Assembly: GCF_000166195.2 (NCBI RefSeq)
Contig: NZ_CM001403.1
Location: 3,118,432-3,182,431, forward strand
Direction: 5' to 3'
Length of the DNA stretch: 64,000 bases
DNA from: Mucilaginibacter paludis DSM 18603
GTDB lineage: Bacteria > Bacteroidota > Bacteroidia > Sphingobacteriales > Sphingobacteriaceae
The position numbers and the translations under genes were made by a program. Positions 17,880 through 26,993 of this stretch are shown piece by piece. The stretch's first letter is position 1. Each line of letters begins with the position of its first letter. Below the pieces are notes generated by a model that was not told where the DNA came from, did not search any database, and saw nothing but the letters and a program-made list of their open reading frames with translations.

Positions 17880-18941
17880 ATGAAATATAGAATTATAGCC
17901 GTTGCTTTAATAACTACAACTGTAGCAGGCTGCTTTACAAAAAAACAATCGGCTGTCCTTAGCGTCAGCCCCGAGGCAGGTACAAGTTATAAACTGGGCG
18001 ACCAGATTCCCGTAAGCGTTTCGGTACCGACAGATACCAAAGCCGATTCGGTACAATACCTGGTTGATTCTGTCAGGGTGTTATCCCGCAAGGATACGCT
18101 CAGCATTAAAATAAAAACCGACTCGATGAAGCTCGGCTCCAAGCTAATTACGGCCCGCGTATTTTCGGGTGGAAAACCGGCCGAAGTATCAACTAATGTA
18201 ATGTTGCTGGCTCCTAAAGCACCAGCGGTTTATACTTTTAAAATAGAAAAAGTATTTCCGCACGATACCAGCTCGTATACCGAGGGCCTGCAATACGTGG
18301 ACGGCTTTTTGTACGAGAGCGCCGGCAATTACGGCAACTCAAGCCTGCGCAAGGTTGACCTGAATACAGGCACGGTGGTTCAGAAGGCAAAAATGGATCC
18401 GATGTATTTTGGCGAAGGTATAGCGGTAGTAGGCGATAAAATTATCCAGCTTACTTATAAAGAAAAAAAGGGCTTTGTATATGATAAAAATACCTTCAAG
18501 ATATTAAGCACCTTTAATTTTAACTGGGCTCCCGAAGGCTGGGGAATGACGTATGATGGCAAAAATCTATTGCATAACGATAGCACCAACCGCATCTGGT
18601 TATTAAATAAAGATACCTACATGCCCCAAGGCTACCTGGATGTTTACGACGATAAGGGCCCGGTAAACCAGATTAACGAGATGGAGTATATTGATGGCAA
18701 GATATACGCCAATATTTACACCACCGATACCATTATTGTAATTGACCCTAAAAACGGAGCCGTTGTAGAAAGTGTAGACCTTAAAAACCTGTACCCGATG
18801 GATAGCCGCCCTTACAGCGTTAAAAGTGATCCGGCTAATAACGTACTGAACGGGATAGCCTGGGACGAAAAAGGCAAGCGTCTGTTTGTCACCGGGAAAA
18901 AATGGGATAAGTTATTCCAGGTGAAGTTTGTAAAGCAATAG
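17880..18941 (+). CDS. Glutaminyl-peptide cyclotransferase-like lipoprotein
   Basis: Protein of 353 aa with a lipoprotein signal (TTVAGC, Cys at about residue 19), so likely periplasmic or on the outer membrane. Residues ~35-110 are a Bacteroidota-type beta domain. The rest is a five-bladed beta-propeller of the Glu_cyclase_2 family (FPHDTSSYTEGLQY; YESAGNYGNSSLRKVDL; LNGIAWDEKGKRLFVTGK). Such enzymes convert N-terminal Gln to pyroglutamate. It begins 9 bp after yraN, presumably co-transcribed. Confidence 0.88.
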   Translation: MKYRIIAVALITTTVAGCFTKKQSAVLSVSPEAGTSYKLGDQIPVSVSVPTDTKADSVQYLVDSVRVLSRKDTLSIKIKTDSMKLGSKLITARVFSGGKPAEVSTNVMLLAPKAPAVYTFKIEKVFPHDTSSYTEGLQYVDGFLYESAGNYGNSSLRKVDLNTGTVVQKAKMDPMYFGEGIAVVGDKIIQLTYKEKKGFVYDKNTFKILSTFNFNWAPEGWGMTYDGKNLLHNDSTNRIWLLNKDTYMPQGYLDVYDDKGPVNQINEMEYIDGKIYANIYTTDTIIVIDPKNGAVVESVDLKNLYPMDSRPYSVKSDPANNVLNGIAWDEKGKRLFVTGKKWDKLFQVKFVKQ

Positions 18942-22107: not shown

Positions 22108-23256
22108 TTACATTTTAAATATCTCTGCCAGTTTGCTATCCAGGTCGGCACCCTTCAGGTTTTTGGCTATAATTTTCCCGTTAGGGTCAATCAAATAGTT
22201 TTGAGGGATAAAACTTACCTTGTATAAAGCGGCCGCATCGTTTGCCCAAAACTTCAGGTCGGATACCTGTGTCCAGGCCAGTCCGTCATCTTTAATCGCT
22301 TTTAGCCATAAAGCCTTCTCTTCGGCTTTATCCAATGATACACCAAGGATTGTGAAGTTTTTGCTTTTATAATGATCATACACCCTAACAACGTGCGGGT
22401 TTTCCTGGCGGCAGGGGCCACACCACGATGCCCAAAAATCAATTAAAACGTATTTGCCTTTTAATGACGACAGCGTTACAGGTGATCCGTTAACATCATT
22501 CTGCGTAAAATCTGGCGCTGGCGATCCTATTGCGGTTACCTTTAACTCATTAATAGCACTGCTAAAACCTTTGCCAAGCTCGGTTTGTTTAACCTCGGGC
22601 GACAAGGCATTGTAATACTGTTCTATCGCCAGAAAGTCCATGCCCGATTTAATTAACACCCGCATACCGATGAGGCTGATAAAGCTCTGAGAGTTACCCA
22701 GTATAAATTTCTCTACAGCGGCGGTTTGCTCATTTTGTAAGCGCCTGTACCGGGCCTGCATGGTATCCTGGAAAGCCGGGCTAATTTGCTGGGCATCCGG
22801 TGTCGACTTAATTTCGCTATTGAGGGCTTGTGCACGCTGGTTGAAGGGCTCTAACATAGCCATAAACCTTTTGTTATCTTCATTCAGCGTTGATCCGATT
22901 ACTTTGGCTTTTGATACCGAATCGGCATCGGTTAAAACAATATTCCCCTTTTCAATATAAAAATTCAAAGCATCAATTCCACCTCTGCTTTGCTGTAATT
23001 TAGCCAGGCCCATAGCTGTAGGGTCCATCACAATATAGGCGGATGCCGGGTCGGCAATGTTACCATGGAATTTAAATTCGCCATTGGTAATTGTTGTTGA
23101 GTCGGTAATGTTTTTGCCACCACGTTCATAAAGCAAATAGGCCCGTGCCGGAGGGTTATAACTCCCAACCTTACCTTTAATGGTATAATTATCGGGTGTT
23201 TGGGCTAATAGGATAGTCGGCATTACTGCCAATAACATTAAAAATACTTTTTTCAT
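22108..23256 (-). CDS. DUF4369 thioredoxin-like (TlpA family) protein, secreted
   Basis: Envelope redoxin of 382 aa. Signal peptide MKKVFLMLLAVMPTILLAQ, then a DUF4369 beta domain (about 23-110, YTIKGKVG...AYLLYERGG), a helical linker, and an AhpC/TSA domain with active site WASWCGPCRQEN. The downstream block FIPQNYLIDPNGKI carries the cis-Pro. This arrangement is typical of Bacteroidota TlpA/ResA-like proteins and differs from the protein at 213-1430 in its N-terminal domain. It lies 18 bp after the arginase-like gene on the same strand, probably in one transcript. Confidence 0.88.
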   Translation of the reverse strand: MKKVFLMLLAVMPTILLAQTPDNYTIKGKVGSYNPPARAYLLYERGGKNITDSTTITNGEFKFHGNIADPASAYIVMDPTAMGLAKLQQSRGGIDALNFYIEKGNIVLTDADSVSKAKVIGSTLNEDNKRFMAMLEPFNQRAQALNSEIKSTPDAQQISPAFQDTMQARYRRLQNEQTAAVEKFILGNSQSFISLIGMRVLIKSGMDFLAIEQYYNALSPEVKQTELGKGFSSAINELKVTAIGSPAPDFTQNDVNGSPVTLSSLKGKYVLIDFWASWCGPCRQENPHVVRVYDHYKSKNFTILGVSLDKAEEKALWLKAIKDDGLAWTQVSDLKFWANDAAALYKVSFIPQNYLIDPNGKIIAKNLKGADLDSKLAEIFKM

Positions 23257-23274
23257 TACTATAAATTAATCAAC

Positions 23275-24459
23275 TTAAACCAGTTTTTGATATGTTCGCC
23301 ACCATAGGTCGGGCATTTCGCCCGATACGGCTATATTATAATCTTCGTAACGGCAGGGTACCAGATGCGACCGCTCGTTTTTTGAGCCTCCCGACGGATA
23401 GGGCACCTGCATCCACCAACGGTCGGATTTTTTGCTTTTCACAAACACAAGTTCGTGATCATCATGCTTTAAACTCGTTTTGTATATCAAATATTGTGAG
23501 CGGGGCTGTAAAGGGAAATCTTTTTTTCTGTTGTAAAATCCGTCAATAAAATACCATATCATTTGGGCAAGCAACATGGCGGTTTGCCCATTGTTATCAT
23601 AAGCCGGGTTAAACTCATAAAAACCTATGGATGTGAGTTTGTCGTTAAAGCCGGCATACCGGCAAATCTGGCAAGCTTCCTCGCCGTATAGTCCATTTGG
23701 GGTAGCATTGGCGTTGCCAACCGCATCTGATGAACGGATGGCTCCTATATCAAAGCTTACCATGGTAGCATTACGGATAATAGGCTCGGTAGCCTGTATA
23801 TTGCCGCTTAACTCGCCCAGGCGGTGTACATCAAAATAAAGCTTATCCATTACCCGCAAACTATCTTGGCTGGCAAAATAAGTTTGGTATCCCAAATTAC
23901 TAAAGTTAAACAAGTAATTTGGCTCGTGTAAAAATATCCTGTTTAAGTAAGATGCTGATGTGGTTTCGATGGTTTCGTAATAGGCATCGTCGTCCAGGTC
24001 AAATTGCGCGTCAACCACTACCACATCTACCTTTTGTTCCAGGTTTTCGTAGGCCAGGTATTGGGCGTAGGTGAGGTCTTGGCCACCGCCAATAATAACG
24101 GGCAAAATATCCATCTTCACAAGTTCGCTCACCACTGTTTTTAACGCGAAATAGGTATCAGTAATACTTGCCCCCTGGCGGATGTTGCCTAAATCAACAA
24201 TATTGGTGGTATAGGCACCTTCGTTTAGCTCGTATAATCTTTCGCGGATATAGTCGGGGCCAAGGGCGCACCCCGAATTATTAACGGCGTTGCGATCTTC
24301 CATTACACCGATAATGGCAATACCCGGTTTAATCTCTTCCAGATCTGGAAACGATTCGGTATAAACATTGATTTTCACGCCAAGGTGACTGCTATAATAG
24401 CCCTTCTTGGGGGCTATTTTTTCTAAATCGATGGGGCTCAAAAAATCAACTAACGACAT
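23275..24459 (-). CDS. Arginase/formimidoylglutamase-fold protein lacking metal ligands
   Basis: Ureohydrolase-superfamily protein of 394 aa. The fold's landmarks are clear, but ligand positions are changed: GGGQ with Gln127 where GGGH is expected; DAQFD with Gln152 in place of His; and SFDIGAI with Asp237 kept but Gly239 replacing the second Asp of the DxD motif. A binuclear manganese centre therefore looks unlikely, and hydrolysis of arginine or formimidoylglutamate should not be assumed. A ~50-residue N-terminal and a C-terminal extension (RSQYLIYKTSLKHDDHELVFVKS) are present. It is the first gene of a pair with the DUF4369 thioredoxin. Function unknown, possibly a regulatory or binding protein. 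Confidence 0.75.
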   Translation of the reverse strand: MSLVDFLSPIDLEKIAPKKGYYSSHLGVKINVYTESFPDLEEIKPGIAIIGVMEDRNAVNNSGCALGPDYIRERLYELNEGAYTTNIVDLGNIRQGASITDTYFALKTVVSELVKMDILPVIIGGGQDLTYAQYLAYENLEQKVDVVVVDAQFDLDDDAYYETIETTSASYLNRIFLHEPNYLFNFSNLGYQTYFASQDSLRVMDKLYFDVHRLGELSGNIQATEPIIRNATMVSFDIGAIRSSDAVGNANATPNGLYGEEACQICRYAGFNDKLTSIGFYEFNPAYDNNGQTAMLLAQMIWYFIDGFYNRKKDFPLQPRSQYLIYKTSLKHDDHELVFVKSKKSDRWWMQVPYPSGGSKNERSHLVPCRYEDYNIAVSGEMPDLWWRTYQKLV

Positions 24460-24532: not shown

Positions 24533-25510
24533 ATGATACTGGTTACAGGTGCAACAGGTTTCCTGGGTTCAGAACTGGCGAAGCAATTAGCCGCTCAAGG
24601 CAATAATTTAGTTTGTATTAAACGCGGCACATCAGTTGTGCCGGATATACTTAAGCCCTTTACAACACAAATAAAATGGGTTGAGGCCGATATATTGGAT
24701 GTTTTTGCTTTGGATGATGCCTTAACCGGCATTACACAGGTTTACCATTGCGCCGCTTGGGTATCATTTAACCCGGCGCACAAAAAAATGATGATCAAAA
24801 CCAATGTGGAGGGCACGGCCAACCTGGTTAATTTGTGCAACCAATATGGCATCCGGATGGTACACGTAAGCTCTATAGCCGCTATTGGCGAGGCCAAGCC
24901 GGGCGAGTTGATCAGCGAAAAAAATCACCTCGAAGAAACTCCGCACGAAAACGCCTACGCGATATCGAAATACGAAAGCGAAATGGAGGTTTGGCGGGGT
25001 ATTGCCGAAGGCTTAAACGCGGTAATTGTAAACCCTTCGCTTATTATTGGCGCCAGCGCTGGAGTAAACGGAAGCGGCAAAATTTTCCAGACAGTTTATA
25101 AGAGATTAAAATATTATACCCCGGGCAGTTGCGGTTTTGTAGATGTTGAAGATGTTGCCAAAAGCATGATCCTGCTGATGGATAGCGGCATTACCGAACA
25201 GCGATATATTGTTAATGCCGAGAATTGGCTTTATAAAGACCTGTTTACAGAAACCGCCCGCAATTTTAAAGTGCCGCCACCCACAAGCGAAGCTAAATCA
25301 TGGATGCTTAACTTAGCCTGGCGATTTTCGGCCGTTTGGGGTTTACTGAGTGGAAAGCCTAAAGGAGTGGATAAAATATCGGCGCAAGCGGCTTCAAAAA
25401 AACTCAATTATGATAATGCTAAGCTCATCAAGGCCACAGGCATTACCTTCAAACCGCTAAGCCTATCCATTAAACAGATCTGCCTGGCGCTGTCGGTGCA
25501 TTCTTCATAG
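24533..25510 (+). CDS. NAD(P)-dependent epimerase/dehydratase (extended SDR)
   Basis: Oxidoreductase of 325 aa with an N-terminal Rossmann motif VTGATGFLGSEL (GxxGxxG, about residues 4-15), the downstream YHCAAWVSF segment and the active site YAISK (Tyr-x-x-x-Lys). It resembles the dihydroflavonol-4-reductase/3-beta-HSD branch often annotated in Bacteroidota as sugar or sterol dehydrogenase; the substrate is not determinable. It is divergent from the arginase-like gene with 73 bp between starts. Confidence 0.82.
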   Translation: MILVTGATGFLGSELAKQLAAQGNNLVCIKRGTSVVPDILKPFTTQIKWVEADILDVFALDDALTGITQVYHCAAWVSFNPAHKKMMIKTNVEGTANLVNLCNQYGIRMVHVSSIAAIGEAKPGELISEKNHLEETPHENAYAISKYESEMEVWRGIAEGLNAVIVNPSLIIGASAGVNGSGKIFQTVYKRLKYYTPGSCGFVDVEDVAKSMILLMDSGITEQRYIVNAENWLYKDLFTETARNFKVPPPTSEAKSWMLNLAWRFSAVWGLLSGKPKGVDKISAQAASKKLNYDNAKLIKATGITFKPLSLSIKQICLALSVHSS

Positions 25511-25700
25511 TGGCTGTTTAAACTTGTCTGTGGTAGCGCTTCGTTGAATGATGTTGGTGTTCTAGCATTCGCGCTGGATACTTTAGGCAAAGGTAGGTTA
25601 ACTACATCATTGGATACAGGCATATTAACCATAAAATCTGTAGTTATTATGGGATTGCTCTGGCAAAAATTTGCACATTTGCATTATTAACGCGCATTCA

Positions 25701-26993
25701 ATGAGCCAATATTATATCATAGATTTCGATAGCACTTTTACACAGGTTGAAGCTTTAGACGAGTTAGCCCGTATTTCATTAAAAGACCGTTTAGATAAGG
25801 AAAAGATATTTAAACAGATTGAAAATTTAACCAACGCTGCTATGGAGGGCCGCTTGTCGTTCTCCGAAAGCCTTGAGGCGCGCGTAAGGCTGTTGCAGGC
25901 CGATCAGATCCATCTTAAGCAGCTTGTTAAGCATTTAAAAAAGAAGGTGTCGGCATCGTTTTCTCGCAATAAGGATTTTTTTAGAGAGAATGCCGATAAA
26001 GTTCTGATTGTTTCAGGCGGCTTTAAAGAGTTTATCACGCCCGTTGTTACCGAATACCACATTAAAAAAGAAAACATCTACGCCAACACTTTTGAGTTTG
26101 ACGAAGAAGGTAACATCATTGGCTACGATACCGAAAATCCACTTTCGCAGGAAGGCGGCAAGGTTGCCCTGTTAAGGCAGCTGAATCTGCCCGGCGAGAT
26201 TTTTGGCATTGGCGACGGCCACTCTGATTTTCAATTGAAGGAATCGGGGATGATTAAAAAGTTTTTCGCCTTTACTGAAAATATTGAACGCAAGGCCGTG
26301 GCCGAAAAAGCCGACCATATTACCCCCAGCTTTGATGAGTTTTTGTACATCAACAAGATGCCGAGGGCTATATCCTATCCCAAAAACAGGATCAAGTGCC
26401 TGGTTGTAGGTAATATTGACGAAGAAGCGCTGGCTATGATGCGCAAAGAGGGTTACAACATCAGGCAGCGTGAAAGCATCGAAGAAAAATACCTGGAAGA
26501 AGCCGGCGTATTATTTTGCGACGAAGCACACCAACCCACACCCATGCAACTGGAGCAGGCGGGCAGATTAAAAGTAATAGGTTGTTTTGGGAAGATAAGC
26601 AACCGCAAAATAGCCGATACGGCTGGTGAAAACGGAATTATTATTTTTGACGATCCGAAACATAACCCCCGCAATGCCGAATTTATCCCTAAACGGGTAA
26701 TAGACTTTATGAACGAGGGTAAAACGCACATGAGCTGCAACTTTCCCGAATTGCAGCCGCCCCGTGTTAACAATGCGCACAGGCTTATCCACATCCATAA
26801 AAACGTGCCCGGCATCCTGGCTCAAATTAACGAGGTGTTTGCCAAGCACAATATCAACATTGTGGGTGAGTTTTTGGTTACCAACGCTCAAATTGGTTAT
26901 GTAATTACCGATGTTAACAAAGGTTATGATCAGCAAATATTAACCGAACTTAAAAAGATCGAACATACCATTAAGTTCAGGCTGTTATATTAA
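25701..26993 (+). CDS. Phosphoserine phosphatase fused to SerA fragment and ACT domain
   Basis: Chimeric serine-pathway protein of 430 aa. Residues 1-~220 are a HAD-IB phosphatase like SerB: DFDST (8-12), SGG loop and GDGHSD (171-176). From about 229 the sequence follows SerA: RIKCLVVGNI, LKVIGCFGKISNRKIADTA and GIIIFDDPKHNPRN, then jumps directly to FMNEGKTHMSCNFPE, omitting the NAD-binding domain. The C-terminus (about 357-430) is an ACT domain (HRLIHIHKNVPGILAQINEVF ... IKFRLLY) like the serine-sensing ACT of SerA. The ATG at 25701 is chosen over a TTG at 25671. Likely role: phosphoserine to serine with feedback control; this is inference. Confidence 0.85.
   Translation: MSQYYIIDFDSTFTQVEALDELARISLKDRLDKEKIFKQIENLTNAAMEGRLSFSESLEARVRLLQADQIHLKQLVKHLKKKVSASFSRNKDFFRENADKVLIVSGGFKEFITPVVTEYHIKKENIYANTFEFDEEGNIIGYDTENPLSQEGGKVALLRQLNLPGEIFGIGDGHSDFQLKESGMIKKFFAFTENIERKAVAEKADHITPSFDEFLYINKMPRAISYPKNRIKCLVVGNIDEEALAMMRKEGYNIRQRESIEEKYLEEAGVLFCDEAHQPTPMQLEQAGRLKVIGCFGKISNRKIADTAGENGIIIFDDPKHNPRNAEFIPKRVIDFMNEGKTHMSCNFPELQPPRVNNAHRLIHIHKNVPGILAQINEVFAKHNINIVGEFLVTNAQIGYVITDVNKGYDQQILTELKKIEHTIKFRLLY

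Follow-up and report, generated by a model that had tools for sequence, protein, structure and literature searches.

Inactive proteins of the arginase fold are already known, namely MetCb (MfmB), the subunit of metformin hydrolase in which most metal ligands are replaced and which pairs with a catalytic ureohydrolase, and an arginase-like protein of Trypanosoma brucei (PMC11271267). In the type IX secretion system (T9SS), the accessory protein PorX acts from the cytosol on PorKLMN/GldKLMN; it is reported to bind PorL (PMC5005315), and its role is experimentally supported (PMC5005315 and PMC10951265). Here we describe a gene in a 64,000-nucleotide stretch of the Mucilaginibacter paludis DSM 18603 genome (NZ_CM001403.1, positions 3,118,432 to 3,182,431 of the forward strand; the window hereafter), whose product, called pseudo-arginase below, has the arginase fold and an altered metal site. 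Judged from its residues, pseudo-arginase is very probably a pseudoenzyme, and the explanation we favor, with slightly less than even confidence, is that it is a class-wide cytosolic protein that binds to or regulates a partner, probably the T9SS/gliding machine. That role would be the one PorX fills as a cytosolic accessory of PorKLMN/GldKLMN, although for PorX it has been supported by experiment and for pseudo-arginase it is proposed from computation alone; PorX itself we take not to be an arginase-fold protein. The T. brucei protein, whose structures are, we believe, 4rhm and 4rhq, is eukaryotic and hence has no T9SS locus, unlike pseudo-arginase.

The gene and the three motifs at issue lie in the window as follows:

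23275..24459, minus strand: the pseudo-arginase open reading frame (ORF), ATG start, 394 amino acids, residues beginning MSLVDFLSPIDLEKIAPKK
24079..24090, minus strand: GGGQ, residues 124-127, with Gln127 at the arginase His101 position (site A)
23998..24012, minus strand: DAQFD, residues 150-154, with D150 and D154 kept and Gln152 at the His126 position (site B)
23743..23751, minus strand: DIG, residues 237-239, with D237 kept and Gly239 at the Asp234 position (site B)

The span of the ORF and the residue numbers of the motifs are exactly those of the original prediction, which did not specify the orientation; over the same interval the plus strand is crowded with stops. Pfam Arginase (PF00491) is the sole Pfam family in the protein, at 98.6 bits against a cut-off of 22. 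An AlphaFold2 model built from 41 sequences (mean predicted local distance difference test score, pLDDT, 92.3; predicted template modelling score 0.92) gave as its top VIA-align match in the PDB the T. cruzi formiminoglutamase 4mxr_A (Z 36.9, root-mean-square deviation 2.2, 279 residues aligned, model residues 22-312), followed by B. subtilis formimidoylglutamase and metformin hydrolase, and fold and profile together place pseudo-arginase in the arginase superfamily. No N-terminal signal peptide was obvious in the protein when judged by eye only.

The six metal ligands of rat arginase I, which we take to be His101, Asp124, His126, Asp128, Asp232 and Asp234, with His126 and Asp234 presumably exclusive to site B, were mapped by alignment with solved ureohydrolases to residues 127, 150, 152, 154, 237 and 239 of pseudo-arginase. 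Only D150, D154 and D237 are intact, which is three of the six canonical positions, and the two His and four Asp of a catalytic member are not found together in the window protein. Eight working-type ureohydrolases used as a control (L002, L003, L004, L005, L007, L008, L018 and L023) carry, without exception, His, His and Asp at the altered positions. The proposal that GGGH, DAHxD and DxD are all altered in this protein is therefore borne out by the alignments, which place Gln127, Gln152 and Gly239 at ligand positions; worded in that way, however, it obscures the fact that the three aspartates of site A are retained.

The same changes are common to the relatives of the protein. Among 139 non-redundant members (redundancy cut at 80%; L265, L266 and L267, below 200 bits, excluded), the residues counted include Gln (112), His (13) and Asn (7) at position 127, Lys (32), Arg (30), His (13) and Gln (11) at position 152, and Ser (73), Gly (32) and Asp (a single member) at position 239. 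Residue 150 is D in 133 members, residue 237 is D in 132, and residue 154 is D in 121 and N in 13. None of the canonical residues H127, H152 and D239 occurs in 112 of the members, one occurs in 27, and two or more occur in no member. Because the His126 and Asp234 positions, exclusive to site B, are replaced in nearly all members, this site is lost. Residue 152 is often Lys or Arg (62 members together), which suggests that a side-chain charge replaces the charge of the metal. Site A still has its three Asp, together with Gln, so that a mononuclear metal there is possible on the residues present. The change in the first motif would not on its own be diagnostic of inactivity, because formiminoglutamases with Asn at this place exist, as in the solved structures 3m1r (B. 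subtilis) and 2a0m/4mxr (T. cruzi). The T. cruzi enzyme, which shares with pseudo-arginase the lack of His in the first motif, differs from it in keeping the His and Asp of site B and, by the title of 4mxr ('with Mn2+2'), in being manganese-bound.

The best reading of the protein is the one originally suggested, a pseudoenzyme whose role is in binding or regulation. It would not hydrolyze guanidino compounds via a binuclear Mn centre, and would instead serve as a cytosolic binding partner whose core holds no more than a mononuclear metal or is salt-bridged. An unlikely alternative is that pseudo-arginase is still an active enzyme, acting on another substrate either with a mononuclear metal in site A (Gln127, Asp150, Asp154, Asp237) or by a new chemistry that needs no metal. 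Such an enzyme would fit the joint presence of D150, D/N154 and D237 in 126/139 members, E282 in 108/139, the invariance of Q192, E225 and R229 across members, and the tolerance of Asn for His101 in the Mn-bound T. cruzi formiminoglutamase. It fits poorly with the Lys and Arg residues that stand at the His126 position as if substituting for metal charge, and with the conservation of the pocket: an excess on the pocket side was looked for in the member alignment and none was found, the value being 2.18 bits in pocket-side loops compared to 2.34 in helices, 2.62 in strands and 2.38 in the C-terminal domain. This last result also bears on the pseudoenzyme that we favor, since it disfavors a pure ligand-pocket sensor.

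A further alternative is that pseudo-arginase is the inactive subunit of a complex with a working ureohydrolase, much like MetCb with MetCa in metformin hydrolase. MetCb keeps the fold without the metal, and the clade of MetCb has three to five of the six ligands changed (PMC11271267). The M. paludis genome, however, holds one PF00491 protein and no other ureohydrolase, leaving no visible partner, and, within the reach of the Pfam Arginase model, we reject a heteromer of this kind for this genome and consider it very improbable.

The arrangement least compatible with our data is that of an ordinary formimidoylglutamase of histidine breakdown, although formiminoglutamases are the nearest neighbors of pseudo-arginase in both sequence and fold. 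The best NCBIfam model is HutG, but at 100.8 bits the protein falls far under the equivalog cut-off of 229.15, and urocanase (HutU) gave no match in the M. paludis genome although it is matched in 172 of 197 genomes of class Bacteroidia; metal site B is lost as well. We therefore reject a role in histidine breakdown, which we regard as extremely improbable, and the warning that a formimidoylglutamase label would mislead is upheld. Two other genomes of the genus (G106 and G183), unlike that of M. paludis, do have a urocanase match. The consequences of the label reach beyond one genome, since a near-universal gene of a whole class is likely annotated as a histidine-breakdown enzyme, and relabelling it would rid many genomes of a metabolic claim that is false. 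A Mariniflexile genome paper lists formiminoglutamase as the sole enzyme of that pathway detected (PMC11278836). Claims of this kind could be caused by the pseudo-arginase family.

The family is a class-wide one. Matches were obtained in 101/101 genomes of the window's family, and BLAST matches in 186/197 genomes of class Bacteroidia, the latter a count taken at E <= 0.001 in which weak ones (e.g. G090, 2.2e-19) may be true ureohydrolases. A profile search of 198 genomes of the phylum returned scores above 390 bits exclusively within the class; the best score outside it was 165.4 bits, and that match ends near profile position 306, before the C-terminal extension described below. In a tree, 29 pseudo-arginase and 23 canonical ureohydrolase rows are split at 100/100 support with one label change, three long branches (L263, L264 and L104) being uncertainly placed inside the pseudo-arginase group. 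The change of the metal site is shared class-wide by one clade, appears to be old, and is not local decay. The closest named relatives of the window protein are from Mucilaginibacter (76-80%), and within the genus the median omega is 0.056 (31/55 pairs with unsaturated synonymous divergence), an approximate value given a median proportion of synonymous differences of 0.72. A pseudogene or sequencing error was ruled out, the altered site being common to the 139 members and omega being about 0.06.

Members of the family also have an added domain at the C-terminus:

23278..23520, minus strand: C-terminal extension, residues 314-394 (about 80 amino acids), in which W348, W349, C369 and Y374 are invariant alignment columns

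These final 80 residues fall outside the ureohydrolase fold matches, and the T. cruzi formiminoglutamase, 22% identical to pseudo-arginase, does not align to them. Modelled alone, the extension reaches a pLDDT of 83.7 with four strands and two helices; compared to the PDB its best match is a putative adenylate cyclase (2aca) at Z 4.7, which is within background, and no clear fold match was found. We propose that this domain may serve as an interaction surface.

In order to see which genes accompany pseudo-arginase, we used a spread set of 80 loci from 54 families, hand-picked from listed matches at one to eight per family; it omits families f2, f34, f38, f41 and f64, whose matches are weak or unlisted, and some of its loci end at contig ends. 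The recurring order is topA, pseudo-arginase, porP, gldK, gldL, gldM, gldN. T9SS genes lie downstream on the same strand in 37/80 loci and 31/54 families, topA lies upstream in 39/80 loci and 32/54 families, and both adjoin the gene in 35/80 loci; the window itself has no such porP-gldKLMN arrangement. Both topA and the T9SS core operon are therefore widespread neighbors, and the locus is ancient. In a synteny control of 34 topA-adjacent loci with enough flank, 32 retain the T9SS genes, compared to 23 that retain miaB (Fisher p 0.011, a guide only, as related loci are not independent). A larger set of 120 loci, biased towards close relatives, has as its most frequent neighbors a short-chain dehydrogenase/reductase (SDR) gene in 52, SerB-ACT in 46, topA in 40, miaB in 32, thioredoxin in 32, gldK in 30, PorP in 29, gldL in 27, and gldM and gldN in 26 each. 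A functional tie to the T9SS is our best single guess, a tentative one that may well be wrong.

Several observations weigh against this tie. The gap to topA is centred near 17 bp compared to near 140 bp for porP/gldK (38 each), and this tighter spacing means that the tie may instead be to topA. Proximity is in any case a weak guide, because the locus also holds miaB, and neither topA nor T9SS genes adjoin pseudo-arginase in 39/80 loci. The gene is not present wherever the T9SS is. One family (f32, by inference Bacteroidaceae), with GldM in 41/61 genomes, has no real copy (one 23.8-bit match), and five genomes outside it (G017, G058, G092, G099 and G121) have T9SS markers and no BLAST match. 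The gldKLMN region was inspected in ten genomes: nine of them lack pseudo-arginase altogether, and in the tenth, that of the window, gldKLMN lies about 1.5 Mb from it. GldB, taken as a marker of gliders and matched in 57/61 chosen genomes including most without pseudo-arginase, does not separate genomes that have the gene from those that lack it, and no T9SS paper naming the gene was found in our searches of the open-licence PMC literature. As the T9SS is kept in genomes without the gene, pseudo-arginase is not a core part of the system. Co-occurrence across the class is uninformative because too few genomes are free of the T9SS: GldM and SprA are each found in 191/197 class genomes. Five genomes (G024, G031, G056, G069 and G129) lack both, and four of these also lack pseudo-arginase, but three of the four belong to one family whose other members have a T9SS without pseudo-arginase. 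One genome of the window's family (G038, locus L064), on a single contig, has GldM and no SprA or GldB match, possibly a T9SS remnant or a diverged system.

It is also conceivable, though improbable, that the gene works with topA, in DNA topology or in expression of that transcript, and that the T9SS genes are merely an old downstream neighbor. The upstream position of topA, with gaps that are short or overlapping, would be expected in that case, and topA occurs without T9SS genes in four loci (L236, at a contig end, L240, L242 and L253) compared to two with T9SS genes and no topA (L089 and L121). Those two loci nonetheless exist, the 39 loci with neither neighbor count against topA as well, and pseudo-arginase is absent from class genomes that, we assume, surely need topA.

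Returning to a partner of the T9SS, we suggest that pseudo-arginase would most likely be an accessory factor that regulates or helps to assemble the T9SS/gliding motor, possibly by contacting GldL from the cytosol much as PorX binds PorL. Rather doubtful, in our view, is the stronger claim that this cytosolic protein with its new C-terminal domain regulates the T9SS/gliding rotary motor in a way so far unrecognised, predates the split of the Bacteroidia families and would be the first arginase-fold controller of a secretion machine. The combination of a class-wide conserved family, a C-terminal domain of its own and a T9SS locus appears to be new; no paper on the family was found in the open-licence PMC literature, which does not imply its absence from print. 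Its conserved site beside gldKLMN makes pseudo-arginase a candidate that can be tested as a partner of the T9SS motor in the cytosol. Two diverged members excluded from the alignment above (L265 and L267, family f61, 124-137 bits) lie near single gldK-like and porP-like genes on the opposite strand.

In the window itself, the immediate neighbors of pseudo-arginase are of another kind:

22108..23256, minus strand: DUF4369 plus thioredoxin-like (AhpC/TSA) protein, 18 bp downstream of pseudo-arginase
24533..25510, plus strand: SDR/epimerase-like gene, the divergent neighbor

The pairing with a thioredoxin that had been pointed out is real in so far as this gene is present 18 bp downstream, but it is not the main context of the family. 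Thioredoxin directly follows pseudo-arginase in 4/8 spread-set loci of the window's family and in 0/72 of the others, and we reject it as an ancestral partner. A scan for promoters and terminators gave nothing above shuffled sequences. Further along the plus strand, the product of 25671-26993 combines a HAD phosphatase part at the N-terminus with an ACT domain at the C-terminus. The homologue L112:4922-6214 has matches to SerB and to the last part of phosphoglycerate dehydrogenase PRK11790, and the product is possibly a SerB/SerA-ACT hybrid; it is the SerB-ACT neighbor counted above in 46 of the 120 loci. At 17880-18941, also on the plus strand, lies a gene for a lipoprotein-like glutamine cyclotransferase (PF05096, 275 bits).
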